Assembly (NCBI GenBank): GCA_020746835.1
Contig: JAGPNK010000004.1
Coordinates: 2,664,843 to 2,728,842 of the forward strand
Direction: 5' to 3'
DNA from: Stachybotrys elegans
Lineage: Eukaryota; Ascomycota; Sordariomycetes; Hypocreales; Stachybotryaceae
DNA: 64,000 nucleotides
The notes beneath the pieces are model-generated. The model made no database searches. It was not told where the DNA came from and saw only the letters and a list, made by a program, of their open reading frames with translations. Positions 12,751 to 61,149 of the stretch are shown here, in pieces (position 1 is the first letter of the stretch; the number at the start of each line of letters is the position of its first letter). Both the position numbers and the translations under genes were made by a program.

Positions 12751-15009
12751 CTATCCTTCATGAGTGCCTCTCTCCTCCGCATCCAAATCAATGCCTTCAA
12801 CCAAGTTGGTCAATATTTGAGAGTCTAGCTCCTCCTTCTTTTTTACCGTGGCCACCGGCCAGCTGCTTCGTACCGTCTGCGCCAAATCCTTCTTTGTGTC
12901 AATCTCCTCGGTCGGATGAACCATGTCCTTCAGTAAGCGAATTTCTTCTGGCCTCATTTTGCTCCGGATGACCTGGAACAGGGCTTGGGCCAAATAGTGA
13001 CTCTGGCGTTGGTTATACAGCCCCTTTGCGATGAGGATCAAGGTGGACCGTAACAGTTCGAGCTCGGGGGGAGTTGTTTCGTCGTTGATGGCATTTATGC
13101 AATCATATCCGGCAACCATAAGCGGTATTACAATGAATAGATCCATGGCTTCGAATCCGTGCCGGAGGTAATACAACCGAATGAGGGTGTAGAGATCTTT
13201 TTTTGCATTGCTTACTATTTTCCTCACGGCCTCTTGTTGATCATGCTGCTTTTGAGCAAGGGGCTCGTAGATGGCTAGTATAAGGCAGTAATAGTACATG
13301 CTAAGTCCTGTTAGCAATAAACGTCTAAAGAAAACGAACAAGACTGCCTTGGGTCCTTACTGAAGTTGCAAATGTGCAGGAAGCGCTATGGCTGCTGGCT
13401 GAAGCGGAGGTGGTAAGTCATGATACCAGCTTTTCAGGCGTGAATGAAGGCTGTCCGCCACCTCCAACGTCACCTCTGATCCTTTGGAGTAGGCTGCTAC
13501 GCAAAACTCGTTCATGATGAGTCTAAACTGGCATTTGGTCTTGAAGATATGCCCAAAGCACGATGGCACACAGCTGTAGTTTTGTGGGTATCTCAACCAT
13601 ACCTCCCCATACCACGATGTGTCTTTAGGCGGTTCTGGCAGTGGCCAAATGGAAGGTGTAGTGAGCAACGGAGGAAACATGAACGAGTATGCGACAAGCC
13701 TAACGATGTTAGCACCTTTTCACTGGAGATGGGGGCGCTGATGGGGGCGCTGATGGGGGCGCTGACGTCTCCCAGCTGTACAGAGTCCATGCTGTGAATG
13801 CCCTGCCTTTCTGGATCCTCTCACTTTGTCCATCTGCGGTGCCGTCAAAGAGGCCCAGCTCTTGGGCCATAGCAACGGCCCTGACTCTATAGGGCTGTCC
13901 AATTTGATCTAGGCCGCATAGATTATGGAAAACGCTGAAGAGTATACCGGCTTGTATGCTGGTGATGCGCGGCTTGTATGCTTCCAGCTCCCAGATGCGT
14001 TTTGCTTCGGCCAAGAACCGGCACAGAAGTGTACTGGGATCCCAGTACATGGCACAGTCCGTGAACCGGGGAGAGCAGACCTAAAATCATCAGATAATTA
14101 GGCGTGCAGGGTCAAGGACACATACACAAGAGTAAGCAAGAACAATGTTGACAAGCAGCGAGGAGCAGAAGTCTTTTTCTTGCGCAGCCATATCCTCCAA
14201 AAAGTAATCTTTTTGAAACGCGGAAGTGAACTGGTACTCGCAGCGGAAGAAAACCCCAAGAAGATCGCGCATCAGCGCGTCGTCACTGCAAACTGTAGTC
14301 CATACCGATGGTTTTACGTCGGAAAGTCGCGGGTCAATGACTTGAGCGGCATGGAATGGCTTGAGATAGAGGCTCTGATGTTCGGCAGAACTCAGCGTTG
14401 ATGTGGCTTGCTGTGGCAATTGATTCCCAGGGTAGAGAGACGTTGCTTCGTAGAGAATCGAAGTCAAGTACGGATTATCAGGAATGAAGACTTCGGGCAT
14501 GCGTGATTGGTACGGAAGTTCATATCGCATCCTGGTTTCGGGTGCAACGGCCATTTGAAGCAGAAGATTACCGGCCTTGATATGATTCACGAGGGTCTCG
14601 GCATCGGTGCCGGCTCGTAGTCTCTGGAGGATACCCTGGGCTTCATGTTCGGGCAGAGTCTTCATGTATCCGAGAAGTTCGGCATCATTGGCGGCTCGAT
14701 CCAGTAGCTCCTGGGGCCGTACCTGATAGTGGCAGTCCCCGTGTCGCTTCACGCAAGCTCGGCATTTTGGCCTGTCGCCAGAGCACTGCCACCCTCAGTT
14801 GGCATGTGTGCGTCATGCGTACGTCATGTTTACGGGCAGGGGCATTTATTTACCTTAGATTTGTTTTTACGACATGCATCACAAGCCAGTGTCACATGCT
14901 TTGGTTTCGCGATTAGTTTCCGAGCCGTGCTCGCCTGCGCAAGAGGACTGGCGGATGCCGGCAACAGAGGGCGAAGAGGCCGATTCGTGCGGGATGTCTT
15001 GTCTGACAT
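12751..15009 (-). CDS. Zn2Cys6 transcription factor with fungal-specific regulatory domain
   Basis: Nuclear regulator of 672 residues in five exons; introns are 14786-14853, 14081-14125, 13700-13766 and 13301-13360. The binuclear zinc cluster is created by the first splice: ACDACRKNKSK joined to CSGDRPKCRACVKRHGDC gives all six cysteines (Cx2Cx6Cx6Cx2Cx6C). A linker with heptad-like Leu follows, then the middle homology region (CAMYWDPSTLLCRFLAEAKR, FTAWTLYSWETLVAYSFMFPP, SWYGEVWLRYP), as in NIT4-like regulators. Intron 3 has a GTCAGC donor and contains three copies of a 12-bp repeat. It is a candidate pathway regulator for the P450/aminotransferase genes to its left; this rests on proximity only. 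Confidence 0.93.
13727..13766. repeat. 12-bp tandem repeat (3 copies) inside a Zn2Cys6-gene intron
   Basis: The plus strand shows gatgggggcgct three times in a row. On the gene strand this reads as GCGCCCCCATCA repeats starting right at the donor. If the intron is retained, it encodes SAPPSAPPSAPP before a stop. Confidence 0.85.
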
Positions 15010-19682: not shown

Positions 19683-19947
19683 ACTTTTGCCAGCCGCGGC
19701 GTCTTCAAGACTCCTTTCTTTTTGATAAGGGCACCATAGGTGAGTCAGGCATGATAAGGGATGCCCAACCATCTTCATCAGAGGCATCTCATGTCAGCAA
19801 TACCCCGCAATCTCGACGTAATCTAGAGAGCGGGGTGATCTTCAGTATCACAAGATAAGGATTCTTGGACCTTCATGATAAAAAGGGTCTCAGTATAACA
19901 CGCTTATTTTCCATCTTCGTTATCTAACGCAAAGGTCCTGTATCATC

Positions 19948-21046
19948 ATGACTGGTGTCCAGACGTTTAAGCTTGGCGACTTTGAGCTCCAGAGCGGCGC
20001 AAAGCTGAACGGTGCTTGGATTGCATACAAGACGTTTGGCGATTCATCCCTTCCAGTCGTCTTGTATCCAACCTGGTTCTCAGGATCGATAGCCGACAAT
20101 GAATGGCTCATCGGCCATGACAAGACTTTGAACCCCAGCAACTACTACATCATTATTGTCGCTCTTATTGGGAATGGCCAGTCCATAAGCCCGTCCAACT
20201 CAGACATCAAGCCGTTCCCCAATGTTTCCTTCTACGACAATGTTCTCGCGCAGAGGCGGCTCGTGGACCATCTCGGTATCCAGCACCTGCGCGCCGTGCT
20301 TGGCTGGTCCATGGGCGCTGCGCAATCATTTCAGTGGGCCACGCAGTATCCCGATTTCATGGACATCTGTGTTCCCTTTTGTGGATCAGCACGAACCTCC
20401 TTGCATAACCAGGTGTTCCTCGAGGGAGTAAAATCTGCTCTGCTGGCTGCCAAGGGGGTAAGCTCTCGTGGAAGCGCTGCTGGGCGCGTCGAGTCGCAGG
20501 GATCCGAAGACAGAACCTGGTCAGACAAGGAGAGGGAAGTCGGCCTCAAGGCTTTCGGTCGAAGCTATGCCGGCTGGGGTTTCTCCCAGACATTCTATCG
20601 TTATGAGATGTACAAGAGGTGGTATGGCGCTCGTAACCTCGAGGACTTCATGGTGACGTTTTGGGAGAAGTGGGCGCTATCCAAAGACCCAGAGAACCTG
20701 CTGGTTATGCTTCATACCTGGCAGAGCGGAGATATCAGCAAACAAGAGCCATATAACGGGGATTTTATAAGGGCCCTAGCGGCCATCAAGGCGAAGACAT
20801 TGGTCCTACCTTGCGAGACCGACTTATATTTCCCGCAAGTATACATTGTTGCCCCCTGCCTTCTTTGATCTGACCGCAAACAGACCTGATGATTCTGAAT
20901 TCGAGGTATCCTGCATGGACCCCAAAATCGCCCAACTTGACGTCTTTCAATCTATGTGGGGGCATTGGGCTGGAGGGCCTCCTGGCAATATCCACGATGC
21001 GGAGTGGCTGGATGAGAAGTTGGCGAAGCTATTCCGAGAGGCGTAA
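19948..21046 (+). CDS. alpha/beta hydrolase, homoserine O-acetyltransferase-like
   Basis: Protein of 349 residues in two exons with intron 20835-20883. The donor is GCAAGT (a GC-AG intron); only this splice gives DLYFPPDDSEFEVSCMD in frame. Landmarks of the MetX-like alpha/beta hydrolase group are LNGAWIAYKTFGD, VVLYPTWFSG (oxyanion region), the nucleophile elbow GWSMGAAQSFQWA with catalytic Ser, an Asp in LPCETDLYFP, and His in MWGHWAGGP near the C-terminus. The usual homoserine-binding details cannot be checked, so it may be an esterase or acyltransferase of other metabolism. A second ATG start is unlikely because MTGVQTFKLGDFELQSG aligns with the family start. Confidence 0.9.
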
Positions 21047-21297: not shown

Positions 21298-24195
21298 CTA
21301 CATCTTGAAAGTTCTCGCCAACCTCTGTGGTCTGCTTGCATATTGTATCTGGAACCGCGGGGTTTCCACGACATCCCAGTCCTCCTCCTTCTCTTCGTCG
21401 CCGAATATTTTGAGTGCTCGTACGAGAAGCGAATAGCTACCCTCCGGAACGAAACTGCCGTCGCTCAAGTCGCCATACCAGGTGATTGTTGATGGTCCGA
21501 CTGGGTTTCTTGGTTGGAATCGCTTGGGAAAGTTGGACAGAGAACCTAGGATGTGATGGCTACCGATTTCGGTGGTATTGCTGGTGCCATTAGTAGGCTT
21601 TACATCCACCCGGACAAGCTTAGAGCCCATGGAGAGACGCAAGTTGAACCAAGGAATCGTGTAATTTCCATCCTCGTCATAGTGGTCGGGGGTCGGAAGG
21701 TGATATATATGCCCAGAAGAGATAGAGTCGGTGCTGGTGCTGGAGAAAAGATAGTTTTCACCATTCTCTGTGTCAAGAATAACAGCATCCTTCATATTCG
21801 ACGCAACGCCCAGGTACGGGATGGTGAGAGCGTCACCATTTGTTCCGTTAATCGTCACGTAGCCGTTGTATATCGGAATGCGAGACTCGTTGAGCCCCTC
21901 TGGCGCTGTTGCTGAAACCTGGATGGTGGCAGACTGACCTGCTGGGATGATAGCAACTGGAGGGCTGAACGATAATTGGGCGTAGTTTGTTACGGTTTCT
22001 GGAAAGTCTCCGTAGTCGTGCAAGGAGGGGATCGGGTTCCCATCCGGCCCCAGGGCATACACAGTTCCACTGCCACTATTCCCGAGAGTATAGATGACGA
22101 GTCCGCTACCCGTGTTTTGGATGCTGAATGTTTGAGTGGACTGATGCTCCGTGTCGTTAAAGGAAATGCTCGACGTATTCACGATTGTTGTGGTGTGGAC
22201 AGCATCGTATATGTTGACATGACCTCCACCTTGCTGAATGACGGGGCCGAGCCAGGGATGCTCACTCCTCCCGTCGTGAAACATGTTCTGCCTCGCGTTG
22301 CTGCTGAGAAGAGCATTGATCTCTGTCCCTGACATCTTGCCCTTGGCTTCGATCAGTAGCGCAATACACCCAGCAAGATACGGTGTTGCCATGGATGTGC
22401 CTGACTCCACGGCGTATCCACCTTTGTTCAAAGGGAATGTCGACATCATGTAGCTTCCAGGAGCCAAGACCGTAGGTAGAAGAAACAGCTCATTCGTAGG
22501 ACCCCATTGCGTGAAATAGCTCGTAAAGCCGCCGGCGAGGGTGTCCTCTTCAACTTTGTAAAGCTTTCCCGCAGATGCCTCATCAACCATTTGCAGATTG
22601 ATGGTTGATCCTGTGCCTATCATCTCCACCCACTCCTGGCCGGTTGAAGCAGGAACCATGCCTGCGCTCTCAATGCCCTCGGTTGAGATGGTCATCTCGT
22701 AGGTGCTTGGCTCATTGTTGTAAATGAGCATTCTTCTTCCTCCTGCAGCAGCAATATTCTCTGCCTTGATACCGAAAGAACAGCCTCCACGACGAACCAA
22801 TACAATCTTGTCCGAGAGATCGGGAGCATTGCTTGGAATAGTGCTGCATCCGTCGGTTGCCTCTGAGCTGTTCAGGCTGAGTGGGTAGAGAGAATAAGTT
22901 CCGTTGACAAAGTCTTTGCCCACAGCAGGAGTCCACCCAAAGCTCTGGGCAGAGGAGTTGCTGCCGCTCGAGAAGGACGCTTTGGTCAGAAACATGGGTG
23001 CTAGTGGTTGGTTGACAGAGCCAACCCCAGTGGCACCTATTCCGTCGGCGCCATTCGAGGCGTAGAAAGTCCCGTAGTACCCGTCGTTGCCAACCGCAAC
23101 AAGACATGGAACGCCGGCTTTGGCGATCCTCTCAATAAGTGTTCCCCATGGTTCTAAAAGCGACGCTCGTTGGTAAGTGACTTTACAACCAAACAGATGC
23201 AGAAAGGGTGCTTGCCTTCAGACCAACCGCTGTACTCGCCCAAAGATGCAGTGATTACGTCTGCGCCGGCGTCGTATGCGCGCGAGAAGGCATCAATGAA
23301 GAGATCAGTCGTTCCGCGCCCCCTGCAGTCAAGCACACGATAATGTCCGAGAGTGACATTTGGGGCGACACCAGTGAAGCCATAAGGGTTCTCCTGGGCA
23401 GCAACCAAACCAGAAACGTGAGTACCTATAGTGTAATCATCCATCAGACTTGAACATGATGTGCGCAGCAAAGTTCAGGAAATTACTGACCATGAGAATG
23501 ACAGTCTGCGAACGGGTCTCCTTCTGATGCTGGTCCTTTGCCGATTTCGTCGCCGACCAAGTCTGCACCGAATGACACCAAGCAGCCCTCGCCAAAACAG
23601 CCGCCCAAGGCTGGATGGTGGTAGTCGATGCCTGAATCTACTACGGCAACCTTAATGCCGCTACCGAGGTAGCCTTCATTGCGCAGTTTGTCGACACCCG
23701 TCATCTGATGCACAACCTCCGCTCCCTCAGCCTGTCGGGCGCGGAGGTGATGTGGAACATCCCATGTTGTTGCATCTCCAGCGGCCGCTTGAGAGCGACT
23801 TTCTGGAGCAGTGATTTCTCGAACAGGTGCAATCCAGCTTACGCCCGGCATGGAAGCGATTCTCTTCACTAGAGCATCTTCATCGTTGCTGGCGTCAAGC
23901 GTGAACGAGAGACCGTGGAACAGACTGGAGGATATATCTCGTCGCCGGGTGGCCCGTACTCCTGTAGTATCTGTTACGAGACCGAGAAAGTCATCGCTGG
24001 ACTGGATTTGCATGAGCCAATGGTCAGTTTCAGTGATTACCAGTCGATATTATTGGACTTTACCATTGAAGCATCATGAAGCTCGACGATGTACGAACTA
24101 GGCACCACGTCTGGTTTGCCACGGGTACTGATAGCAGCAAAGATAGCCGTAGGAAAAGCTGCGGCTATGCCCAAGCACCGCCAGAAGTACACCAT
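21298..24195 (-). CDS. secreted subtilisin-like serine protease (S8, with PA domain)
   Basis: Extracellular endopeptidase precursor of 902 residues in four exons; introns are 24002-24063, 23426-23490 and 23154-23215 (a GC-AG intron, donor GCAAGC). A signal peptide (LGIAAAFPTAIFAAI) starts at the ATG at 24195. An inhibitor-I9-like prodomain (SYIVELHD...FHGLSFTLD) is followed by the catalytic Asp in VAVVDSGIDYHHP (near 166), His in CHSHGTHVSG (near 214, completed by splicing) and Ser in VESGTSMATPYLAG (near 538). A protease-associated insert (VLVRRGGCSFGIKAENIAAAG) lies between His and Ser, with an Fn3-like C-terminal region after it. The whole triad is intact. Dikaritin clusters usually encode an S41 peptidase rather than S8, so a link to the RiPP locus is not implied. 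Confidence 0.93.
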
Positions 24196-28232: not shown

Positions 28233-28424
28233 ATTAATACATGTCTATAATGACCACTGGTGATCTTGAAGTAATATTCAAAAATGTCTTGTAAAGAACT
28301 GTCACAATAAAACGCTTTCTTGCTCAATTTACTTCGAAAGTCGGTGATACATCCACTATATCCAATACCTGAATGTGAGTTTGAAACGCTGACTTTGTTG
28401 GGCTGCATCGCCGGGCCATTGATC

Positions 28425-29924
28425 TTAATCGTTGTGAGAACCTTCGGAAAGAAGATGTCCACGTTCATCCCCTTCAACCTTCTGCTTTGAGGAGGCGTCT
28501 TCCATCTGTTCCTTCCTGCGAGCCAATTCGGGGACAACAATGAGGAGAACTATCGCCTCAACTGCTGCCAGTGTCCCCCAAACCATCCTGGCTGAAGCTC
28601 GTTCCTTGGCAAATACAAGACCACTGACCGCAATATTAGCCTCCAATCTGAGGAGCATCATTCACATAACTCACAATGCCGTGTTTGCGGTGCCAAGTAC
28701 TAAAAGCAGCCTGCCATTCCATCGATGGGCGAACGAGGGAGCAGTCCTTCGCCTGTACTTGACGAAATTCTTGTGATGCCACCAGCCAAGCCAGATTTGA
28801 ATGCCAACTAAGGCCATGAGGACACTTCCCAAAGCAGGGTGTGCTTCCAGCAGTCTTTCAAACTATTTATACCATTAGCTTCGCTTTGGTTCGTTTGTGT
28901 TCGTGAAAGCTTACCCCATTGTTGGCGATTATCGGCCATAGCATCAAACCAACGCCACTGAAAGCGCAAACCATGGCAGTGAGCTGAATCGTCACATGGG
29001 CCACGAATGACTTGGAGTACCCAGTGCTGAAGACAGCAGCACCGGCTGGAAAGAGAATCATGAAGGCGAATCCAAGGAGAAGCCCGTGCGCCCTGGCAGC
29101 AGTGAAACCAGGGTCGCTTTCAGACTCCGAGCCATCGGCGGGAGCACCAAAATCTGAGGCTCCAAAGGTTCCCTTGCTCCGGTCAACTGTCGGCGGCGCA
29201 GCTGCCTGGCCTGCATCAGGGGCACTGGCAGTCATGTCGGCCCAGAAAAGGCCTGCCTTGTCAGCAAATTTGTCACGACACTCGTGGAGGGCAAGGCTTC
29301 ATACTGTAGTGATCATGCTGGTGGATACGAGCGTCGGAAGTCGCAACCTCAAATGTTTGCTTCAGCTCACGAGCCCAGATGAGCGGGTGGCTCTTCTCCG
29401 TGGGGTTGAATGTGGCCCAGCTATCGCAAGAGTAGCAAACGAAGGCATACTCTTGCCAGGTATCAGTTTGAGAATTGATGGAAAGCAATTCCGCTGCTGG
29501 AGTTTTGTCTGGTGCTTCCTGTGGCTGAAAGTGACCCCTGATACAATGAGTTTAGGGTCATGTGCAAGAGGGGACATAACTTACGCCGTTGTGCGCACAC
29601 TAAGAACCGCATCTGCGAAATTGTCAGCAGCCTTCTCTGATTGAGGCCAAGGAGGAACATACTCTTGCTTTGGTCGGCGATAATGAGAAACATAAGAGCA
29701 CCGGCCATTTGTTCACCAATGCCCATAGCCATCCATCCCGTTGTAGCTGTACCTTCGTATCCCAACGTCACGTAGAGATCTACACCGCTGCTACTTTCGT
29801 TCTTCGCGCCGACAATACCCAGGCAGATATTGGCAAGCTCATCTTTGTGGCAATACTGTATCGCACCCAAAGCTGATGTGCAAAGAAGGCCGAGGCCAAG
29901 GAGCAGGAGACGTGTTGGTGTCAT
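28425..29924 (-). CDS. DOMON and cytochrome b561 transmembrane protein
   Basis: Protein of 415 residues in six exons; introns are 29613-29662, 29538-29584, 29253-29304, 28863-28914 and 28624-28674. A signal peptide (LLLLGLGLLCTSALG) leads into a CBD9/DOMON haem domain (GWMAMGIGEQMAGALMFLII, with Met ligand; His in RIHQHDHYS). A Ser/Asp-rich linker follows, then a cytochrome b561 domain (AHGLLLGFAFMILFPAGAAV, FVAHVTIQLTAMVCAFSGVG, LLEAHPALGSVLMALVGIQI, FAHRWNGRLLLVLG) with spaced His ligands, and a Lys/Glu-rich tail. Such proteins move electrons across membranes and can feed extracellular or luminal metallo-oxidases. Sitting between UstYa-like genes, it could supply or drain electrons for them; that is inference. 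Confidence 0.9.
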
Positions 29925-30762: not shown

Positions 30763-31482
30763 TCAAGCCTTCAAGCCTGCATCCTGTTCGATGGGCTGCC
30801 TACACCAACCAAACCCACCACCCGAAGGAACCCTCGCGTAAATCTCCCCCACGGTGCTCCAATCGGTCGCCAGGAGAACACTGGTGCAGTGGGCCGTGTG
30901 GTGGTATTCGCCAGCCCAGATGTTGGTCGCGATCCTTCCCTCCATGGACTTGTGCAGTCGCTTCCACCACAGAATGCAGTGGCCAGCATGGAACTCCTGG
31001 GTGGTCCAGATGTCTTTTCCAGCCATCTCAGACATCTCCTCGAGAGTTTCAATGTGCCGAGTGCCCTCTTTATCGTAGAAGAAGGGCCAAGGACGGACAC
31101 GCTCGGGAGCGCGCAGCCAGTCCTCAAACTCCTTGGCCGTACTTTGATCTTGGCAAGCTGCCGGCCACCAAGTCGCCGAGAGCAAGTCGTAAGAACATCC
31201 CAGGGCTCGAGCTTCAGCAGTGGTGTTGCCGCACTGCGAGGAGTCGACGAATGGGCCACGAGCGGCTGAGGCACCGCCGTCGTTGTGGTTGTGACCACCG
31301 CCCAAGGTTGACGTGCTCGAAGTGCCAACGCCGACTCCCAGAATGAAGGTAACTGTAGCAGCAAGGCCAGCCAGAGCTACATTCCGCAAGTTGGACTTGG
31401 CTCGGGTGTGAGCCGTAGGGGTGGCGATGATACCATTCTCATCGCCGAGAGCAACTTTCTCGTAGTTTGGAAGATAGCTCAT
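30763..31482 (-). CDS. UstYa-like (DUF3328) oxidase B
   Basis: Single-exon protein of 239 residues starting at the ATG at 31482. A short cytosolic N-terminus, a membrane anchor (NVALAGLAATVTFILGVGVG, about 34-53) and a luminal domain with the CG-T...EA...C motif (CGNTTAEARALGC, 84-96) precede the signatures HAGHC (165-169) and HTAHC (195-199). It shares the CG-T..C, WxPxxC and signature spacing with UstYa-like D, so B and D look like one subfamily and C another. Predicted role is oxidative modification of the secreted precursor peptide in the secretory pathway. It is divergent from the precursor gene, with about 700 bp between the two start codons. Confidence 0.92.
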   Translation of the reverse strand: MSYLPNYEKVALGDENGIIATPTAHTRAKSNLRNVALAGLAATVTFILGVGVGTSSTSTLGGGHNHNDGGASAARGPFVDSSQCGNTTAEARALGCSYDLLSATWWPAACQDQSTAKEFEDWLRAPERVRPWPFFYDKEGTRHIETLEEMSEMAGKDIWTTQEFHAGHCILWWKRLHKSMEGRIATNIWAGEYHHTAHCTSVLLATDWSTVGEIYARVPSGGGFGWCRQPIEQDAGLKA

Positions 31483-32181: not shown

Positions 32182-32598
32182 ATGAAGACCTCCACCGTTC
32201 TCTCTTTGATCTCCATGATCACTGCGGCCATTGCTGCCCCTGCCGCTCCTCCAGGTAGCTCTACTTAGACTCTGATGAAACTTGAAGCCTAACAACCACC
32301 AGCTTCCCTGGAGGCCAGACAGTATCAGCTTGTTGTTTCTCAGCACGGTGTTGAGGATGGTGCTGAGACTACGGCTGCTAAGGAGAAGCGTCAGTACCAG
32401 CTGGTTGTCTCGCAGCATGGTATCGAGGACGGCTCCGAGGAGACCGCTGCTGCCAAGGAGAAGCGCCAGTACCAGCTCGTCGTTTCGCAGCATGGCATTG
32501 AGGATGGTGCTGAGACTACGGCTGCTAAGGAGAAGCGCCAGTACCAGCTCGTTGTCTCCCAGCACGGCATTGAAGAGCCCACCGAGGCTAGCAAGTAA
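32182..32598 (+). CDS. secreted RiPP precursor with four kexin-separated repeats
   Basis: Protein of 122 residues in two exons with intron 32255-32302 (48 nt, GTAGCT donor, CTAAC branch, CAG acceptor). Exon 1 encodes the signal peptide (MKTSTVLSLISMITAAIA, then APAAPP). After ASLEAR come four repeats at residues 31-54, 55-79, 80-103 and 104-122. Each starts QYQLVVSQHG, followed by a variable acidic spacer such as VEDGAETTAAKE. Repeats 1-3 end in KEKR, a Kex2 site; the last ends EPTEASK and stops. The layout matches dikaritin precursors (ustiloxin UstA, phomopsin PhomA, epichloecyclin GigA). Each core has one Tyr, the residue usually cross-linked. No known core sequence is recognised, so the product appears new. 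Confidence 0.9.
32320..32595 (+). repeat. four coding tandem repeats of the RiPP precursor
   Basis: Units run 32320-32391 (72 bp), 32392-32466 (75 bp), 32467-32538 (72 bp) and 32539-32595 (57 bp, truncated). The ten core residues are identical in all four. The codons are not: Tyr TAT/TAC, Leu CTT/CTG/CTC, Ser TCT/TCG/TCC, His CAC/CAT and Gly GGT/GGC all vary. The spacer varies in amino acids. Confidence 0.95.
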
Positions 32599-33157: not shown

Positions 33158-34172
33158 ATGGCATACCATCTGGAGAAGGGTCTTCAGGACCGGGATGATG
33201 ATGAATCATCTACAGACACAACTCTTCTTCAGAAAGATATGGCTGCTTCCCAATATAGCAGGAAGAGTAGAAGGTCTTGGGCTAAACCTCTTCTTTTCCA
33301 TGGCGCTCTGCTTTCCATGTACTCACTGGGCTTCTTTTATGCTGTCTGGAGTCTTCAGAACGACCTCGGCTGCCGTAAAGCAGAAATTATCGATTGTAAG
33401 TGCCCTACGTCTAGGCGAGACATAGTGATTAACGTATCACAGCCTCTGCAACCTCTGCGTTGGAATACGGGACGCGGGTCTTTGACGAAATCGATGACCT
33501 GGATCTCTACTTTGGTAAACCAACACCAGAGTTGGACTCGCGATGGGAGGATCTATTGAAGTGTACGTCTGCATCCCATAATCTACCGAACTCTTATTAA
33601 TCTATCCAGATCAATGGTTGCAAGTACCGCAAGCAGACATGGAGAGGCTGGGCCGGGTTGAGGAAGGCATCAAGCTACCAGGTGGTGGCTACTTTGGCAC
33701 CTTGGCTGTATTCCACGATCTTCACTGCTTGGTAAGGCGCTTTCACGTTGATTGGGGTGCCCTTCTGACAATATTAGCGTCGTGTCCACCACGCATTTCA
33801 TCGAGACCATTATTTCCCCAACATGACCGAGGATGAGAAGGAGTTGGACTCTCGGCACGCCGGTAAGCAACCTCCTCCACGAACACAGAAGCGCAATCAC
33901 TAACTGTTCTAGCCCACTGTCTGGATAGTCTGCGCCAGAGTGTTCAGTGTGCAGGTGATGTCTCTTTGCTAACTATGCGTTGGGGAGTGAACACCCGTGA
34001 GCCATTGGGCAACTTTACGAGCCCGCACGAGTGCGTAAGCTGGGATGGTATCCAGGACTGGGCAAGCAAACACGTATACGATGTGATGGCGCCGGGTGTA
34101 CTAGTCCATCCCACCCTGGGGCCTTCTTATCCAGACGGCAAACCCGGACTGGGGGTTGGCAGGGACAATTAG
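33158..34172 (+). CDS. UstYa-like (DUF3328) oxidase C, classical form
   Basis: Protein of 274 residues in five exons; introns are 33396-33442, 33563-33609, 33732-33777 and 33863-33912. A charged cytosolic N-terminus is followed by a membrane helix (PLLFHGALLSMYSLGFFYAV, about 44-63). The luminal part reads SALEYGTRVFDEIDDLDLYF, then PGGGYFGTLAVFHDLHC (first signature, Cys 159), RRVHHAFHRDHYFP, and RHAAHCLDSLRQSVQCAGDV (second signature, Cys 191), ending with TMRWG and a Pro/Gly-rich tail. This is the textbook UstYa layout of ustiloxin and cyclochlorotine-type clusters. It is transcribed in the same direction as the precursor, 560 bp downstream. Confidence 0.95.
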
Positions 34173-34884: not shown

Positions 34885-35562
34885 ATGAACTTCCACGATT
34901 TTCTACGGGTTCCCGGTGTGAGATATCACCGACTGCCTTCTCCCAGTGAAAAGTCAAGTACCAACGACTATTCCCCTGCATCACAGCACCGAAAATCCTC
35001 TTTTTGGTGTAACGTCCTGTTCTGCGGCATTGTCGCCATTCTGACAATTTCCCTTATTACTATATCGGCACTATACATCAACTTACTTCAACAATATGCG
35101 CCCAAGCCACTGCTGACGTGCGGAACGACCATCAGGGAAGCACAGGACAGAAACTGCTCATTTGACCGGCTGACCAAGGCATGGTTACCCGCGGAATGTC
35201 CTCGCTATTATGAGACAGAATTTCTTCAACTTCCGACAGCAATCAACATATCCAGTTGGCAATACTGGGAAGACTTCGCCGCTACCAAGGAAGTGACGGA
35301 TGCGGAGATGGCCATCTTCGCAGAGACAAAGCCTCAGCATGCGCAAACATGGGTATCGACAACGCGTATGCACCTGGCTCACTGCGTCTATGTTCTCATG
35401 CGGCAAGCCGATGCCTATGCAGCCGGCGAGAGATTGGACTGGACGAGCAAGGATGTCCCGCACGCAAAACACTGTCTTCAGATGTTGCTGGATACGGCCA
35501 TGACGGCGCCGGATATTGACACAGCCATTGCGCGAGGAGAAGTTGGGTTTGGTGCTTGTTAG
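34885..35562 (+). CDS. UstYa-like (DUF3328) oxidase D
   Basis: Single-exon protein of 225 residues. A membrane anchor at about 43-66 (VLFCGIVAILTISLITISAL) is followed by CGTTIREAQDRNCSFDRL (79-96) and AWLPAEC (99-105), the same Cys-containing element as in UstYa-like B. The signatures HLAHC (163-167) and HAKHC (193-197) come next, and the protein ends soon after with EVGFGAC. The B/D similarity suggests duplication or two enzymes acting on related positions. It forms the right edge of the recognised RiPP locus. Confidence 0.93.
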   Translation: MNFHDFLRVPGVRYHRLPSPSEKSSTNDYSPASQHRKSSFWCNVLFCGIVAILTISLITISALYINLLQQYAPKPLLTCGTTIREAQDRNCSFDRLTKAWLPAECPRYYETEFLQLPTAINISSWQYWEDFAATKEVTDAEMAIFAETKPQHAQTWVSTTRMHLAHCVYVLMRQADAYAAGERLDWTSKDVPHAKHCLQMLLDTAMTAPDIDTAIARGEVGFGAC

Positions 35563-39119: not shown

Positions 39120-40466
39120 CTAACGCGTGAAGATCGTGGGACGGCGAAAGTCATCAATCCGGCTGACAAGTGAAAACATGGTCATCTGAGCTCTAGAGTA
39201 CCCGAGGATTTCCATTATGTGTTGCCATTTCGATTTGATGGGGTCGGTAGCGGCGTGCGGTAGCTTCCAAAAGACTGCGTGTATCATGATAACTTCATGA
39301 TATGGCAGCCCAAACTGTGCGAGAAACTCGATCACTCTATAGAATCCTTGGTGGGAGAGACTTTGTAGTCCCCACCTGTCGAGCAAATTGAAGAGCATCG
39401 ACCGCAGCTCCATGTGTTGATGCTTGGTGATGACGTTGTCATGCACAGGTATGCCGTCTTTCAGAACGACACCCGCATCGAGCCAAAGCTGAATTCCCTG
39501 GATGGCTTCTTGTCCGTCTGCCCAGTCCTTGACTGATAGGACGTATACATAGATGGGAAAGGGCGTGTAATACTTACGCCTACCATACGGCGGGTAACGT
39601 CTGATCCCACGAAATACAATAGGGGCGTGCTGGTTGGCTTCTGCTCCTCTTGTCAGGCATTCCAGGACGTGCAAGCCGTCTGTCCATGGCATGACTCGAG
39701 CTGCTGCAAATATTGGAATGCAATCAATTCGGCAATTCCTTGTCGGAGGTGAGGTAAAGCGCTTGCCATATATGCTCGCACCATGTTCGAGGAGCAAGTC
39801 TCTGACTGGGATATTGTGCTTTTCTATCGCGACCGCCAACGGACACGAAGAGCCGTCCATCACCCACTGTGCCCGCAGCGGATTCGCGCCATGGCCCAAG
39901 AGATAGCGTATTCCCTCTTCCGGCTGTTGGCGGCTTTTAATAAGCAAGATGAGAAGGATGTCGACAATGACTTGGTCGCAACATAGGCGATGGCCCGCCA
40001 TATCGACGACGACACGCATCATTTCGTCCTTGGCTGCCAACGTCTTGAAGTTCTGTAGTGGTGCTTTTGTCCACCAAAATGCATCATAGAGCTTATGACA
40101 GTGTTTCTCGATGCGAGCGCCGCGTTCCATGAGCAGCCTTAGCGTGCTTGGCTGGCAGTGCCGAAGAATGTCGTCCATAATGACCGGGTCTCCAATCTCC
40201 GCGCCTCCAGTGTTCCATCTGAAGGAGGAATTATATTTGCAAAACTTTTGCACTGCTGTATCCAAACCCAAGCGGCATGCCCTCTGGAACACCGTTAGGC
40301 TGTACTTTTTAAGGCGCTTTCCGGGTTGACAATAAAGAGTCGGCTCCACGCGCGCCTGCATTTGTCTGCTGCACTGGGATAGGGGGCTTAGTTGCTGAAT
40401 AGTCAGGTGACATAAGATGTCGTCAAGGAGCTCTTGGGGTAACGTTTCGAAGACGTGATTAGGCAT
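39120..40466 (-). CDS. F-box protein with ankyrin-like repeats
   Basis: Single-exon protein of 448 residues. An N-terminal F-box (LPQELLDDILCHLTIQQLSP) is followed by degenerate ankyrin-type units (PSTLRLLMERGARIE, GIRYLLGHGANPLRAQ, PLAVAIEKHNIPVRDLLLEHGASI, and LHVLECLTRGAEANQH). Such proteins are expanded in filamentous fungi and probably act as SCF ubiquitin-ligase adaptors, with the repeats binding the target. The target is unknown. Confidence 0.85.
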   Translation of the reverse strand: MPNHVFETLPQELLDDILCHLTIQQLSPLSQCSRQMQARVEPTLYCQPGKRLKKYSLTVFQRACRLGLDTAVQKFCKYNSSFRWNTGGAEIGDPVIMDDILRHCQPSTLRLLMERGARIEKHCHKLYDAFWWTKAPLQNFKTLAAKDEMMRVVVDMAGHRLCCDQVIVDILLILLIKSRQQPEEGIRYLLGHGANPLRAQWVMDGSSCPLAVAIEKHNIPVRDLLLEHGASIYGKRFTSPPTRNCRIDCIPIFAAARVMPWTDGLHVLECLTRGAEANQHAPIVFRGIRRYPPYGRRKYYTPFPIYVYVLSVKDWADGQEAIQGIQLWLDAGVVLKDGIPVHDNVITKHQHMELRSMLFNLLDRWGLQSLSHQGFYRVIEFLAQFGLPYHEVIMIHAVFWKLPHAATDPIKSKWQHIMEILGYSRAQMTMFSLVSRIDDFRRPTIFTR

Positions 40467-40945
40467 GGTCGATGGCTCATGGGCAAGGGATTATCAAGTC
40501 AGAGACACGAGGCTTAGAGGGGATTTGAATGTCTGTCGAGAAGCGGGGTAAGTGTAGGGAAAAGTCCTGGATTGGAAGGTGTTAAAATCGAACATCGGTG
40601 CACCGAAGGAAGGCGAAAAGAAGGACAGAATGGAATAAACAAATAATCTGATTAATCTCAGCCCGAAATAAAATTCCCATATGAAGTTCTAAAGCAGTCA
40701 AGGTCTATCACAAATTTACCAGCCGAGAGAAATTACCGTTGCCTCAGTTCTGCCAGTTCCATATATTGCCCTGTCAGGCCTTTTGGAACAACATGGTACA
40801 AGGCGTCAGTTTTGCGTGGAGAAAGGCAGTATCTATATCATATTCTAGCCGATAATCATAAGCACACTTGACTCGTATAAAGAGTAAAGGGTCCACAGGT
40901 TTGTGTGAACATCTTGATAAAAACACGGAGCATCGTAATGCTATC
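40467..40945. other. intergenic region
   Basis: No gene; promoter of the F-box gene and 3' flank of the transporter. Confidence 0.5.
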
Positions 40946-42428
40946 CTATGCTACCCATGTCGTGATTGCTTTCAAGCTTCCGACAACGGTGAGGGAGACA
41001 AATGGCGATAGGCAGTAAGATAGCTGTGCAATACCATGTTAGCAATTTGACGTGAATTCGTGCGTTCTTCCTGTTGACCAACCGTAAGAAACTTGGCAAT
41101 AGCCATCTTTTCTTCATCCTCAGCTCCGCCAACATCAGCTAGTGCACCAAGCTTCATTGCAGAAGGCCCGGTGGGCATCAGCATCATGGTGAACCACAAT
41201 ACCGGGTCGTCATCGAGGAGCTGTGTTTTTCGAGCCAGGACACCAATGACGAGAATGCTCACGCTGGAATATATTAGCATAACTCTTTGACACAAAGCTA
41301 TTCCGGAGGTCGGAAAGGCAACCCACATGGGCCAGAAGATGAACCGGACAAGCAGCGTAAAAGTGACTGCCGCGGGAGGGAGCTTTCCAGATGACTCTCC
41401 ACGGCGCATGCGACGCAAACTGACAGCAAGTTTGACGCCAACAATGATGACTTGAAGAGCAATAAAGAGCTCTCCAATGTTCTTCAAGCTCGTGGTAAGC
41501 CAGGCATTGAATATGCCCCCCTGCGTTGCGTCGTTGAAGAATGCCTTGTGAAGTGGTGGCGTTATTCCTAGAAAGATGCCAAGAATAGCTCCAATCCCCG
41601 GTGGGCTGAGAAACTTCCGAATCTGCGCTGTCACGGTTTGCAACCAGGGGGGAAAGGTATCCCAGACTTTCGTAAGGGCCTTGTAAGTGCTCAACGAGAC
41701 GGTGTCCTTCGTACGGTTCACACGATCAGGCAGCAGAGAAGTCTCCTCGTCGGGCTGGTCCTCCTGTTCGTAATCTCCTGCTTCTACTAGATCCTCGTCA
41801 CTCGACCGCTCGCGCAAGTGCTTATCCAGTTCCTCTACTGGGTCTTCCTCGTAGGCACCAAACATCTCCCCACCGATGCCAAAGGTCATTGTGTTGCCGA
41901 TAATGGAAGCGACGAGGAAATATGACCGTGCGCGCTTTACCATAGACTCTACGTCGTCATCATCGTACCGGGCCAGCTGTCCCAGGACCCCAGTGGATCC
42001 AAGCGATTGAATCAACAGGAGGGGCATCGAAGTCGTGTTGTTGAAACATACAGCGGGAGTAACCCACTTGGGGAAATTGAAGATACGAGTCGCGGAAGCC
42101 CCAATGGCCCAGGAGCTTAGGTTATAGAAGAGTGCCCAAACTATGGGCCTAGGGTTAGTAGGATGGTGTCTTTGGGGGCGAGGGATTTCTTGCACGTACC
42201 TAGGATGGGAAGAAACCTCGTAACATTGTCTATCTCCAGCTCCTCGCCAAGGTTGACAATGAGAAGCGCTGGCAGGAGCATGTTGACGCATAACTTGGAG
42301 ATTTTCTTGGCGGAGCTCTCATCAAGAAAACTGGTTTGTGCTGCAAGGACACCGTAAAAGATGGTGAGCAGCACGGATAGAGATGCCTGGATCGCCCCAG
42401 CGAAAGACGCAAGCATCGGGGAGGCCAT
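40946..42428 (-). CDS. auxin efflux carrier (AEC/PIN-like) family transporter
   Basis: Membrane transporter of 454 residues in three exons with introns 42141-42199 and 41024-41082. An N-terminal helical bundle (AIQASLSVLLTIFYGVLAAQ, NMLLPALLIVNLGEELE) is followed by WVTPAVCFNNTTSMPLLLIQ, the typical AEC N-terminal half. A long acidic cytosolic loop comes next (EDPVEELDKHL to NRTKD), then the C-terminal bundle (SPPGIGAILGIFLGITPPLH, MLMPTGPSAMKLGALADVGG). The last intron (GTTGGT donor) yields AKFLTLSYCLSPFVSLTVVG; without it the protein would end in an unrelated tail. Fungal members sit in ER or plasma membrane; the substrate is unknown. Confidence 0.92.
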
Positions 42429-43342: not shown

Positions 43343-45021
43343 CTACTTGCGCTTCTGATCATCAACAATATGTTCAACATACTCCACATTCGTGTCCGTT
43401 ACGGCTTTTTCCGACTCGAGTTCTTCATGGCGCTTATCAAAGATATCACCAATCTCCTCAAGCGAGCGACCCTAGAGATTATTAGAAACAGCTCCTGGTG
43501 GTCTAACGAACGGGTTGGATAGCAAACCTTTGTTTCCGGGAACATGAAGTACACCACTGTCAGAACAAGTCCGAGCCATAAGCAGTAGAAAATGTAGTAC
43601 TTCCAAGCCAGGTTCTGGAGGCCGATGGGATTCACAAACTGGTTGAAGAAGCTAGCGCCCTTGACTGAGCCTATGAGTAAAGCCATGCCTTTGGCTCGGA
43701 TAGGGAAGGGGAGAATCTCGACGGGATAGGCAACGGTCAAGGGATTCCAACACACGTTGTAAGCCGTGATGAAGAAGAAGATGCAGACCAAGACTCCAGC
43801 ACTGGCTGCCTCAGCATGGGTTCGATGAAAGACACTTCCACTTGCTGTCCAGCACATCATGGCTAACAGCATGGCGGAAGTAGATGCGAGAAACAGGGGC
43901 CTTCTCCCAACCTTTTGCACCAAGTTGGCACCTGCCATTGCCACCAGCATGTTCCAGATCTGAATGATGCCGTTGATCAACGTAATCCTCTCCTGCGACG
44001 TAATTCCAATGTTGCGCAGGACCGGTGCCAAGTAATAGGAAACCAATCCCATACCTGACCACTGGGGGAACAAGGCACAACAGATAACTAGGAGGGTGCG
44101 GTGTCGGTTCGGGTTTGTCCGTACCAACTCCCCCCACGATCGGGAGCCCTCCAGTTCCATCCTCAGAGTTTCCCGAATTTCTTGGAACTCGGCTGCCACA
44201 AAATGATCGTCTTGGTTGTTGTTGGCATGATACTTGGTAAGGATAGCTTGCGCCTCGTCGCTTCTATTCTCGCCAATCAGCCAGCGGGGGCTCTCTGGAA
44301 GGAACCAGAGTGTGGCAATGTTGATGAGCGCAGGTGTTGCTTGAAAGATGGCCGGAAGACGCCACGACCAGTCGGAGGGGATTCGAGATGTTCCGTATGT
44401 GGTCCATGCAGCCAGAACAGAGCCGAGGTACCACAAGGTATTGTACATGGATGTAAGGGTCACTCGGGAGGCAGGGTGCGCAAGCTCTGTAACCATCATG
44501 GGTGCTGAGGCCGACGTGATAGTATTGCCGAAGCCAATGATGAAGCGAGACACAAGAAACATGGCGACTATACAGACCGCGTAAGTAATTAGATAGTAGC
44601 AACCATACCTAGAATCTCACTGTTCATGCTTGCAGTTTGAATCACAGCGCCGATGATTACGATAATGTCTCCAACTGCCATGGAGATGCGCCGGCCGTAT
44701 CGATCTGACAGGAAAGCAGCAGGCCAAGTCGCAAAGACGGCGCCGAGGGGCAGAATAGCGTTCATGGTCCCCAGAAGACTGCCTTGGGGGCTTCCAAAGA
44801 CTAACCAGATGGAAGTCAGCCATATACAGCACACGATGGACAAGGTGTTTAGTCTGCTTACATTGAACCCATCTATCGACTCCTTGAATCCCATTCATCA
44901 TAGAACTGTCATACCCCATGCCAGCACTTGCAATAAATGCCCCCGGCAGGAGGATGAGGTAAAGTTTGACAAGGCTCGAATTTCGGAACCATGGCTGCTC
45001 GTGATTGACGAAGGTAGTCAT
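43343..45021 (-). CDS. MFS sugar transporter (hexose/lactose permease-like)
   Basis: Sugar:H+ symporter-type protein of 506 residues in four exons. Introns are 44801-44861, 44568-44608 (41 nt) and 43472-43527. Family landmarks are GYDSSMMNGIQGVDRW in TM1, SDRYGRR (the RxGRR loop after TM2), RFIIGFGNTI, ELAHPASRVTLTSMYNTLWY, PESPRWLIGENR, QWSGMGLVSYY in TM7, VQKVGRRPLFL, NPLTVAYPVEILPFPIRAKG and FPETKGRSLEEIGDIFDKRH. The last motif requires the final splice; the unspliced frame ends in an unrelated tail. All conserved motifs are intact. It is the last intact gene before the AT-rich block. Confidence 0.95.
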
Positions 45022-45645: not shown

Positions 45646-46639
45646 TTTTTTAAGAGACTAGAAGTCAAATTAGGCAAAGGCTACCTATACTACCAGTGGT
45701 ATAAATAGCTAAAATCCTATACTACTAGTAGTATAGATAGCCAAAATTATATAAGTATTATATATACTAATAAGGGTTATATAACCTTTATTATATACCT
45801 TATTTAAAAAAAACATATATAGGTTTAAATTTAAAAGCTTAAAAATAATAAAGCTATTTTAATTTAAAAAGAGTTTAGTAATCTTTTTATATATAGAATA
45901 GCTATATTTATAGCTATTATAGTCTATAAATAGCTTTATATTAATATTACTATTAAAATTATAATATTTTTAAAATATATTAAAAATAACCCCTCTAAGT
46001 ATAAAGTAAAACTACTTAAAGGGAAAGGGATATTAATAAGGTTTTCTCTTTAGTTATACTAAAATTAAATAGATTATATAAATACCTAATTGTCTATTAT
46101 ATAATATACTTAATTATCTATATTTTAAGGACTGCATTAAGGCTTTAACTATATACTATAGAGGCTATAATTATGAATATAGTTATAAATAGACTAATAG
46201 TAATATAGTTAACAAGTAGAGTCTTTTGTCTAGAGGTTAAGGATATATTAAATATTATCTAGGCCTTATATAGTTTAAAACAATTAAAGAAGGCCCTCTA
46301 TCTCCCTTTACTAAAGCAATATAATAGATAGACTCTAAGATATAGATTAAGCTATTACATTCTTATAGCCTTTATATACTTAGCTAGCCTATTAGCCTTT
46401 TTCTTTTCTCTCTAGTTCTAAAGGGGGCCTAGGTCTAGGCTTTTAGGCTATTATTTAAAGGGCTTAAAAGCCTTAGTTTATTAATATAGACTATTAGTAA
46501 TACTATTCTTTAAAGACCTTTTAAAATAAATAGACTTACTTAAATAGCTTAATTATTTATAGCCTTAGATTATTCTTAGAGGCTTAAAATATCTCTAGTA
46601 TTTTAGCTTTTAGTTAAATCTATAGTATATATAGTATTA

Positions 46640-46830
46640 ATCCCTCCTGAGCATGAGGTTTAAAAGGCTTACACTGTTTTTTTCACTGTCTTTTCCGGCT
46701 TACCCTGGACCCATTCCCACACGCCGTTGCTGACTAAGCAGGTTCCCCGCATCACGTGCTTCTTCACAGCCTTCTGCACACGACTATGGCTTCCGACACA
46801 TTGCTTGACAGCTCTCTATAATATTATGTC
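46640..46830. other. GC-richer island inside the AT-rich block
   Basis: About 190 bp of near-normal composition stand out against the surrounding A/T. On the minus strand it is open for about 50 codons (includes KQCVGSHSRVQKAVKKHVM and LVSNGVWEWVQGKPEKTVKK) and then stops. Possibly an un-mutated fragment of a single-copy gene or a young insertion. Not recognised. Confidence 0.5.
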
Positions 46831-47565
46831 ACAGGGGCATTGGGCATACAATTTAGTAAGGCAGTAAAAGTGATTAATTTAATAACTAAAGTAAAAAACC
46901 AACTGAAAACCTATACTGAAAAACCAAGCCAAGGCCCTATAGCTACCACTCTCTTATGCTTTTGATTTACTAGCTAAAGGGGCTATTTTTAAAGAGCTAG
47001 CTTCTCTTAGCCTTTTTACTCTTTTACTTCTTATATTCTAGTTCTAAATTAGCTAGAGAAGGGGAGTAGTAGAAGTTATTCTATTTCTAAACTATTAGTA
47101 ATATTATTATTAGATTTTTTAGAGTAACTTACCTTATAAATAACTTCTTTACCAGTATTATTATAGATAGTAGCTAGGGCTATTACTACTATATTTATAG
47201 CTATATTATTATAAGTATAAGTATTATTTATTTATATTTTAACTATAAGATATAAGTAGGTAGTGAGATATAAATAATAAATTTATCTCTTTTAAGCTAA
47301 GGGCTTAAGGGCTTTATATAGCTATAGGCATTAAGCTTTTCTCTATTAGCAGTCTAGAGTAATAGTAATCTTATATAGTTACAGTTATAGACTTTTCTAG
47401 TGCCATTAGTTAAAGCTTTCTATTAGCATTATAACCTTATAGTTATAGCTAGTGGCGCTCTTTATTTAGGTATAGGTTATAATAAGGCTTCTATAGCATT
47501 AGCAACCTTATTTAATAAGTTAACTAAAGCTTCCCAGCTAGGCACTATTAGTCAGAGCCTTCTAT

Positions 47566-47592
47566 CTAGTCTAACCCTACCCTAACCCTCTA
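47566..47592. repeat. short telomere-like motif
   Basis: The text ctaaccctaccctaaccctc contains two complete CTAACCCT units with one degenerate spacer. It resembles the CCCTAA telomere repeat, but is far too short to be a telomere. It may be chance in this AT-rich stretch or an old interstitial trace. Confidence 0.3.
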
Positions 47593-48837
47593 TATATATA
47601 TATCTTAATATCCCGTTGTATTATATACCTATATATATATGGCTTATAATGTTATAGCCATCTATAGCTTAGTCATTTAGCTAGTTAGCTACCCTATATA
47701 GGTAGCCTAATAATAGCCTTATTATTATTTCTCTTTACTATTTATAACTATATTAATTACTAAAGTACTAAATACTATCTCTACTATTTATTTACTCTTT
47801 ACTACTTATACTCTATACTATATACTTTTTTCCTTATTATATAGTATTAATAAATATTAAATCTAATAGTATATATATAAAAGAAAGAGAAAGAGAGAAA
47901 TAATAAAAAAGGTAAAGGCCTTTTTATATATATTTCTTAAACTCTATTTTAGGGCTAGGCTTTATATACTAGATTATATATTCCTAGTCTAATATAGCTA
48001 TAGTACTATTTATAGCTATAGCTATTATATAGTAAGTTAGTTTTTTTATTATTTATATAGTTTAAGAACTTCTACTAGAATTATAATAGTATTTTAATTT
48101 TAGTATATTACTCTTAGTATTTTATTAAACTATTTTTATTATATATAGCTAATAATTAATTCTAAATAATAATACCTTTGCCTTATTAAAATATAGACTA
48201 ATAAATAGTATATATATATATTAAGTTTACTAATTATAAGTCTCTTTAACTATATATACTTTTATTACTATTATTACTACTATAGTCCCTTTATTATTCT
48301 CTAGCTCTAGCTAATAAAAGATATTATTTAATAATCTCTTTATTATTTAATACTATTCTTTAATTCTATAGATAGTAAGGCTACTATTATTTATATATAC
48401 TATTATTCTTTTTTCTATACTAAATATATTTACTATATTAAAAAATAAACCCTTTTTTTATCTTTTTTTTAATTTAAACTATTATTATAAACTAGAATAT
48501 AATATTTATTAAAGACTATTTAAATATCTATTTAACTAAAATAGTTTAGTTAGTATTAAAAGACTTTATATAGTTTTCTAAAGTATATAGAAGATTTATA
48601 ATTATTTTTTTATTAATAAGTTAATTAATATAAAAAATCTTTTTTATATTAATTAAAGAAAATAACTATAAAGTATTAATATAATATATAAAAATATAAC
48701 TTTATAAAGGTATTCTTTTATAAACTAAATTTAATTTATAAATATCTTTAATTATTATATTTACTAACTATACTATTCTATATATTTCTACTATAGTTAT
48801 TATAAAGTAAAGTAATTATTATATATAAAAATATTTT

Positions 48838-49343
48838 AACTATAGTAAAAGCTATAGTAAGGGCTCTAAGAGCTTTATAAACTATAAGAGTACTATATAA
48901 TAGCTATAGTAAGGGCTATAGTAAGGGCTCTAAGGCTATATAAACTATAAGGAAACTATATAATAGTATAGTAAGGGCTATAAGGGCTATAAGAGCTATA
49001 AGAGTACTATATAATAGTATAGTAAGAGCTATAGTATATTATAAGGGCTCTAAGGCCTATAAGAGAACTATATAATAGTATAGTAAGGGCTATAGTATAT
49101 TATAAGGGCTTTAAGACTTATAAGGGAACTATATAATAGTATAGTAAGGGCTATAAGGGCTATAAGGGCATTAATAATAGTATAATAAGGGCTATAAGAG
49201 CTATAAAAGCTATAAAAACACTATATAATAGTATAATAAGGGCTATAGTATATTATAAAGGCTTTAAGGCTTATAAGGGAACTATATAATAGTATAGTAA
49301 GGGCTATAAGAACTATAAGGGCTATAAGAGTACTATATAAAAT
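48838..49343. repeat. AT-rich minisatellite built on gggctataa
   Basis: About seven or eight imperfect units of roughly 60-75 bp. Each contains actatataatagtatagtaa followed by one or more gggctataag/gggctctaag submotifs. It is a higher-order array made from a 9-bp element. The units differ mostly at A/G and C/T positions. Confidence 0.8.
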
Positions 49344-50399
49344 AAATTAATAGTATTAATATTATTAAAATAGTACTAAACATTATAAAAAGTAAAGTAT
49401 TATATATAAAAAGCTAGGAATTAAACTAGTAAATTATAAAAAGAATAGTAATAAATATAACTCTTTATACTATTATATAATAATCTAGTCTATTTTAGTC
49501 TAGGGTAGGTAAGGGTAGATTAGTAACTAAGGTTCTAAGGGGCTAAGTTAGATTTATATTATAGTATTAGTTATAGTATTATATTTAGTAATATATTATT
49601 TACTAAAGATAAAAGTATAACTAAGTTATATTAATAGTTAGTAAGTATTTTAAAGGAACTTATAGTATTTACCCTTTTATATATCTATATAGTTTAGTAT
49701 ATTAACTATAGTTAACTATAGTTAATTACATTTTATTAACCTATATAAGGTTATTCTATATTAACTATAGTTAATTATATTCTATTAATATATATATATT
49801 ATATAATCTATAGTTCTATAACTCTTTCTATTAGTTATATTATAATATAATACCTTTTTTAAATAGTTTAATCTTTAAAACTATTTTTTATAACTACTTT
49901 AGTTTAGTAAATAATCTTTTTTCTTTATTATTATATCTTTATATATTACTAAGTATATATCTAGGCCTAAAGTTACTACTAAGTATTATTATATTATTAC
50001 TACTTATATAAATAAATTTAGTTTTAAAATACCTTACTATATACTTTACTTTTATTTAAATTATTTTTATATTATTATTAAAAGTAAGTACTAGTATAAT
50101 TATTATATTAAATTAAAATAAATAGATTATAACTTTAATAATATTTCTATATAGACTTATAAATTATCCTTTCTTTATATATTATTCTAGCTTTTAATTA
50201 ATTATAAATTACTTATATTTTTTATAAAAAGAATTATTTAAATAAATAGAAAGAATAAATAGAGATAGATCTTTTAAAGGCTCTAGCTTATTTATAGTAT
50301 CTTTATTAGTAGAAGAAAGCACTTTATACTAAAGTAGTAAAAATACTTTACTATAGTATAGAAGATTTAAATAAACTAAAGGTAGTAAAGGCTATAGAG

Positions 50400-53675: not shown

Positions 53676-53676
53676 T

Positions 53677-54535: not shown

Positions 54536-54739
54536 CTCCACTTGTTTACTATGCCTTTATTAAACCTATTTAGCACTGAAATCCTATTGTAAGAATGCTA
54601 TCTATTGTGGATTACTTAGTTTGGAGGAGGAGAATGGAGTGTCTGAGGAACAGAACGTTATTGTGACCTAACAGGCTGTAGGCGACCTACAGTCCCTTAG
54701 CGCTTTTAGTATTCTTGATTAAGATACTATTGGGATTGA

Positions 54740-61100: not shown

Positions 61101-61149
61101 TACTTAAGGGTACATAGTAACTGTCTAAATAAAAGCTATTAATATATAA

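Follow-up and report, generated by a model that had tools for sequence, protein, structure and literature searches.

A probable small dikaritin-type RiPP cluster with a QYQLVVSQHG repeat precursor in Stachybotrys elegans

A repeat precursor, an adjoining UstYa oxidase (gene B) and a divergent pair of UstYa-like proteins (genes A and C) together form what is in all likelihood a small dikaritin-type RiPP cluster in Stachybotrys elegans. The cluster lies in a window of 64,000 nucleotides, by which we mean the whole stretch of DNA that was analyzed and to which coordinates refer. The precursor is very probably that of a new cyclic peptide of known general type. The class assignment is well supported, and the cross-link chemistry is put forward below as a proposal. 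Of the features by which dikaritin loci are recognized, we found a signal-peptide-like start followed by repeats, putative Kex2 sites between the repeats, an adjacent DUF3328 gene and the double HxxHC motif.

The precursor gene (32182-32598, plus strand) encodes 122 residues once a predicted intron of 48 nt is removed. Exon 1 (32182..32254) starts with the ATG at 32182 and encodes the signal-peptide-like sequence MKTSTVLSLISMITAAIAAPAAPP. It is followed by the predicted intron (32255..32302, GTAGCT...CCTAAC...CAG), which has an in-frame stop codon, and by exon 2 (32303..32598), which carries the four core repeats and ends in TAA. As the unspliced frame terminates within the intron, the secreted form of the precursor depends on the predicted splicing. 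In length, the intron fits the four predicted introns of gene B (46-50 nt), while the donor sites differ (GTAG in the precursor, GTAA or GTAC in gene B). The spliced product begins with MKTSTVLSLISMITAAIAAPAAPPASLEAR and continues with four repeats that each start with QYQLVVSQHG. Hydropathy was the sole basis of the signal call, with a highest 19-residue value of 1.72 in the segment from residue 4. A first-pass annotation of the same DNA had described a signal peptide and four repeats with an identical ten-residue core, three of the repeats ending in KEKR, and this is what the spliced reading contains.

The gene appears to be present once, since a query with the exon 2 protein matched the genome at this place alone (E 0.1). 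No S. elegans entry for the precursor was listed in protein searches of 5.8 billion sequences, suggesting that the gene may be missing from public annotation. The precursor itself gave five weak Pfam hits, none of which reached the cut-off (lowest E 0.0032), and we regard them as chance.

The core copies are located at 32320..32349, 32392..32421, 32467..32496 and 32539..32568, all on the plus strand, in an array for which Tandem Repeats Finder reported a period of 72 and a score of 327. Repeats 1-3 terminate in KEKR, which therefore precedes copies 2, 3 and 4, and repeat 4 terminates in IEEPTEASK, directly followed by the stop codon. The earlier description of the copies as separated by KR holds for copies 2-4 with respect to the preceding KEKR, but copy 1 follows EAR and copy 4 has no KR behind it. 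Cleavage at the three KR sites would yield four repeat-bearing fragments, of which just two are flanked by dibasic sites on both sides.

At the DNA level, 7 of the 30 columns of the four aligned core copies are variable, and all of these are third codon positions. Any two copies differ at 4 to 6 of 30 bases and are identical in amino acid sequence. Altogether, at least 9 base changes have occurred with zero amino acid changes, an outcome with a chance probability near 4e-6 in a simple estimate that sets the synonymous fraction at 0.25, counts at least 9 changes and leaves gene conversion among the copies out of account. The spacers vary between repeats, while the amino acids of the core are constant. 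The restriction of core changes to synonymous ones appears to reflect purifying selection on the peptide. The same pattern rules out a chance repeat or a non-coding satellite.

The first-pass annotation had proposed a homology search for relatives of the precursor. Our search covered 5.8 billion protein sequences, with a method that requires shared short exact words and a length of 0.55 to 1.75 times that of the query, and returned a sole relative at E <= 10. This protein, P0001 (69 residues, from a 27-kb contig, E 4.9e-5), carries QYQLVVS-x-H twice, in the form of two QYQLVVSVHDIEEP repeats, and includes ERQYQLVVSVHDIEEPAPESKVKR and ERQYQLVVSVHDIEEPAPTE. A second search, with an alignment of the precursor and P0001 as query, found no relatives beyond P0001. 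Because the S. elegans genome has one precursor copy, P0001 must stem from another genome.

Comparison of the two proteins shows that QYQLVVS (core positions 1-7) and His9 are common to both, and that P0001 has Val and Asp where the S. elegans core has Gln8 and Gly10. The conserved QYQLVVS-x-H lies between spacers in P0001 that are unlike those of S. elegans. All six core copies (four in S. elegans, two in P0001) retain the Tyr. The P0001 cores follow LAER and LEER, with KR 11 and 5 residues upstream, so that three of the six copies (EAR, LAER and LEER) have a single Arg rather than a dibasic site before the core. Given the differing residues 8 and 10 of P0001 and the absence of a dibasic site immediately in front of its Gln, we regard the ten-residue length of the core and its N-terminal Gln, with possible conversion to pyroglutamate, as putative. 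The conserved His9 could mark the end of the core, act as a recognition residue or be a second reactive residue.

Genes A, B and C are all located within 3 kb of the precursor. Gene B (33158..34172, plus strand, five predicted exons, 274 aa) starts 559 bp past the precursor stop and encodes a UstYa protein (DUF3328, PF11807; 170 bits) with the motifs HDLHC and HAAHC; the PF11807 match found in the genome scan at 33627-34073 is inside this gene. Gene C (34885..35562, plus strand, 225 aa) is divergent and UstYa-like, with the motifs HLAHC and HAKHC and a PF11807 score of 26.3 bits against a cut-off of 25. Gene A (30763..31482, minus strand, 239 aa) is likewise divergent and UstYa-like, with an N-terminal hydrophobic segment and HxxHC at residues 165 and 195, and had no match above cut-off to PF11807 or other Pfam models. 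The proposed proximity of the precursor to a DUF3328 gene was thereby confirmed by gene B, with the UstYa-like genes A and C in addition. Hydrophobic peaks are found near residues 35-63 in all three proteins (2.09 in A, a modest 1.52 in B, 2.52 in C). Each protein has two HxxHC motifs, a feature described as diagnostic of RiPP-related DUF3328 proteins in the text consulted of PMC12048977.

Genes A and C are related. They are 24% identical (E 6e-11), an hhalign comparison of the A family with C gave a probability of 96.4%, and within the genome, gene A matches only C besides itself, and vice versa. An alignment of 12 rows (A, its ten database hits and C) contains 22 invariant columns, which include six cysteines and both HxxHC motifs, two of the cysteines being part of the motifs. 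The A family compared with six UstYa sequences of the genome gave an hhalign probability of 2.7% (E 0.017), which is not significant; in the short alignment, the HxxHC motifs were paired. Of the 12 alignment rows, PF11807 matched only that of C and not one of the 11 rows of the A family. As judged from sequence comparison, gene A is UstYa-like by motif and via C, not by direct homology.

Besides its own entry, gene A has nine database relatives, 45-73% identical, among them proteins of Xylariaceae sp. AK1471 and FL1272, Nemania serpens, Nemania sp. FL0916, Hypoxylon argillaceum and Lasiodiplodia mahajangana. These six are presumably all outside the order of Stachybotrys, which makes the distribution of gene A look patchy. 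The database model of gene A itself (S. elegans B0I35DRAFT_407649) has 212 residues; relative to ours it is short of 27 residues (81 bases), some of them from the N-terminal hydrophobic segment. The N-terminal stretch in question is present in 7 of the 9 other relatives and absent from P0008 and P0010. The gap in the database model is probably a false intron, although P0008 speaks for a real one.

Matches to solved structures had E values of 0.3 (A-family profile) and 0.48 (gene B) at best and were taken as chance, and the AlphaFold models were poor (mean pLDDT 44.6 for A and 52.0 for C). A shared promoter motif was rejected as too weak: the three intergenic stretches have two 8-mers in common, compared with 0.24 expected (maximum 3 in 200 shuffles), and no 9-mer.

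In the 43.4 Mb genome, PF11807 has 28 matches, which group into 18 places. The 10-kb stretches around these places make up about 0.4% of the genome, and chance adjacency to the precursor is therefore unlikely. Among the 17 other UstYa loci, five carry KR- or RR-repeat precursors within their 10-kb stretches, namely many copies of AYGRHTDDVSQSKR (L002), DENLLDKKIGLSTDWIKR (L007), EIDVADAFKR (L008), VIYPDYRR (L012) and ASVLPPLVDAGIEKR (L015), the last a repeat that shows no Tyr. The five were chosen by eye among the rows that passed a repeat filter. In a control, this filter was passed by 5 of 19,685 shuffled frames and, elsewhere in the 64-kb window, solely by another frame of the precursor itself. 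According to the text consulted of the KEP survey, DUF3328 neighbours accompany 1758 of the 7878 KEPs (PMC7329392). Together with the five loci, this indicates that the precursor type is common and its kind already known.

Other genes of the window were inspected for possible tailoring or processing functions. Of the 48 tyrosinase matches (PF00264) in the genome, none is on C34, the contig that contains the window. The sole S41 peptidase match of the genome is on contig C23 and thus not in the window, and no methyltransferase was found among the 20 window proteins or frames scanned with Pfam. The five-gene dikaritin definition that PMC12048977, in the part consulted, quotes from Ding et al. 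includes a tyrosinase, a methyltransferase and a transporter or peptidase, and the locus departs from it in the tyrosinase. Pfam matches above cut-off identified an alpha/beta hydrolase (19882-20865), a subtilase with PA and Fn3-like domains (21301-23217, minus strand), a membrane transporter (40975-42318) and a sugar transporter (43402-44616). The subtilase, about 9 kb from the precursor, is a possible precursor-processing protease. An F-box-like match (39123-40490) and a zinc-cluster match (14093-14794) were below cut-off.

Two side observations concern the remainder of the window. On the same strand as gene A and downstream of it, a multi-exon secreted or membrane protein is predicted (28400-29924, minus strand) that starts with MTPTRLLLLGLGLLC; three exon pieces were negative against Pfam and NCBIfam at E 0.01, and the protein may be of the DOMON/cytochrome b561 type. 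The window forms the right end of the contig. Beyond about 46 kb its GC content is 14-29% all the way to the contig end, and this AT-rich part (46000-64000) contains many tandem arrays, for example at 48838-49356 and 61145-61585.

The architecture of the locus is in line with published systems. Umemura 2020 defined KEPs by at least 3 repeats of at least 8 aa between KR, KK, RK or RR sites, and reported, in the portion of the text available to us, that DUF3328 genes are on average 3.09 genes from the precursor and most often adjoin it, and that Tyr occurs in 65.6% of repeats with DUF3328 neighbours (PMC7329392). KEPs of the kind with DUF3328 neighbours are alike in architecture and gene neighbourhood to the precursor described here. 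For ustiloxin, phomopsin and asperipin, excerpts of three papers describe cutting of a KR-repeat precursor and UstYa-type proteins that help make Tyr ether rings (PMC6514808, PMC9233826, PMC4740483). Ustiloxin B is barely detectable without KexB (PMC4740483, in part), and the ustiloxin ring also requires the tyrosinase UstQ, while asperipin-2a is not formed without AprY, a single UstY-type protein (both PMC6514808, in part).

The asperipin-2a cluster of Aspergillus flavus (AprA/AprY) is similar in being small, with a repeat precursor, a UstY-type oxidase and no tyrosinase among its four genes (PMC6514808, in part). It differs in that its core, FYYTGY, has several Tyr in contrast to one Tyr per S. 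elegans core, and in having one UstY gene, a transporter and a reductase where S. elegans has three UstY-like genes. With ustiloxin and phomopsin, the locus shares the signal peptide, KR-flanked repeats and several DUF3328 genes, and the Y-x-L of the core may correspond to the Y-x-I of their cores. On the other hand, the core is another one, the S. elegans contig has no tyrosinase match, and a UstQ counterpart is lacking. Moreover, the acidic ED or EE residues are behind the core in S. elegans, but before the Tyr in EDYXI (PMC6339444, in the text consulted). Epichloecyclins (GigA) likewise have four repeats, a signal sequence, KR sites and a core Tyr (PMC6514808 and PMC9233826, in part). Their core is presumably different, and Lys methylation has been reported for GigA in these excerpts.

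By analogy with these systems, the precursor would enter the ER via its signal peptide, and kexin in the Golgi would cleave behind KEKR, and perhaps also behind the lone Arg of EAR. Membrane-anchored UstYa-type enzymes would then oxidize the repeat at Tyr2, the phenol oxygen of which would most likely be bonded to the beta-carbon of Leu4, Val5 or Val6. A Tyr2-x-Leu4 link would give a ring of the size formed from Tyr-x-Ile in ustiloxin and phomopsin, with Val5 and Val6 as alternatives. Other proteases may trim the flanking residues before the peptide is secreted. The computed [M+H]+ of QYQLVVSQHG is 1158.590, or 1156.575 with one cross-link and 1139.548 with pyroglutamate in addition. For QYQLVVSQHGIEDGAETTAAKE, the expected form after kexin and carboxypeptidase action, the values are 2374.152 and, when cross-linked, 2372.136. 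We infer splicing, expression, kexin cutting and the cross-link with its position, and any function of the product is likewise putative. Peptides of this kind typically act in defence or antagonism.

A more far-reaching variant of this scheme, which we consider doubtful, is that A and C form a separate peptide-oxidase subfamily, on or past the boundary of the present UstYa model, which acts together with the canonical UstYa on QYQLVVS-x-H and makes a cross-link other than Tyr ethers, for example via His9.

Unlikely, in our view, is a linear, unmodified, Kex2-processed signalling KEP (for instance a pheromone or a growth signal), with the UstYa genes nearby by coincidence. In support of this explanation, a secreted linear peptide could plausibly start with Gln. 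Moreover, a DUF3328 neighbour is missing from 6120 of the 7878 published KEPs and from nearly all of those annotated as mating factors (PMC7329392, in part). Against this stand the one clear and two divergent UstYa-like genes that flank the precursor, the constancy of the Tyr in six of six core copies, and the location of the alpha-pheromone-type repeat of the genome, which sits elsewhere, on contig C2. There, five WCMRPGQSCW-coding stretches (C2:1320819-1321382, minus strand) are very probably an alpha-type mating pheromone precursor. The alpha-pheromone repeat motif of ascomycetes is WCxxxG[QE]xCW. Its absence from our precursor, together with the pheromone-type repeats on C2, led us to reject mating pheromone identity.

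Quite improbable, although compatible with a dikaritin origin, is a silent or decaying cluster near the AT-rich contig end. The low GC content from about 46 kb onward would fit, as such AT-rich DNA is typical of silent, mutated regions, but the frames of the precursor and of A, B and C are open, the core has changed only synonymously, and the nearest cluster gene ends about 10 kb before the AT-rich part. Finally, although fungi have many secreted proteins that are acidic and rich in repeats, an intact secreted repeat protein, cell-wall or effector-like and with incidental KEKR sites, is highly improbable given the fixed core amino acids among varying spacers, the retention of QYQLVVS-x-H among different spacers in P0001, and the adjoining UstYa genes.

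The first-pass annotation had called the precursor a new candidate, with a core unlike the published ones it named. The strings QYQLVV, YQLVV, QYQLV and YQVVV were not found in a fungal context in the running text of the literature searched. QYQLVV turned up in a single paper, on peptide synthesis, and the other strings in 12 papers that, judged by title and opening of the abstract, treat different topics. QYQLVV is absent from the conserved motifs named in the consulted text of Le Marquer et al. (PMC6339444), and was not seen in that of Umemura 2020 (PMC7329392), which leaves the repeat profiles to a figure and the lists to supplements. As far as searched, the QYQLVVSQHG core is therefore new and the claim stands.

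The locus offers a compact four-gene test case, with one Tyr per core and three UstYa-type proteins. Two of these, A and C, share six conserved cysteines; A is unseen and C barely seen by the Pfam model. The interest of the locus is slightly raised by a core conserved in another genome, a very small gene set, and two UstYa-like proteins at the margin of what the Pfam model detects. Assigning roles to A, B and C would bear on the number of UstY proteins needed per cross-link.
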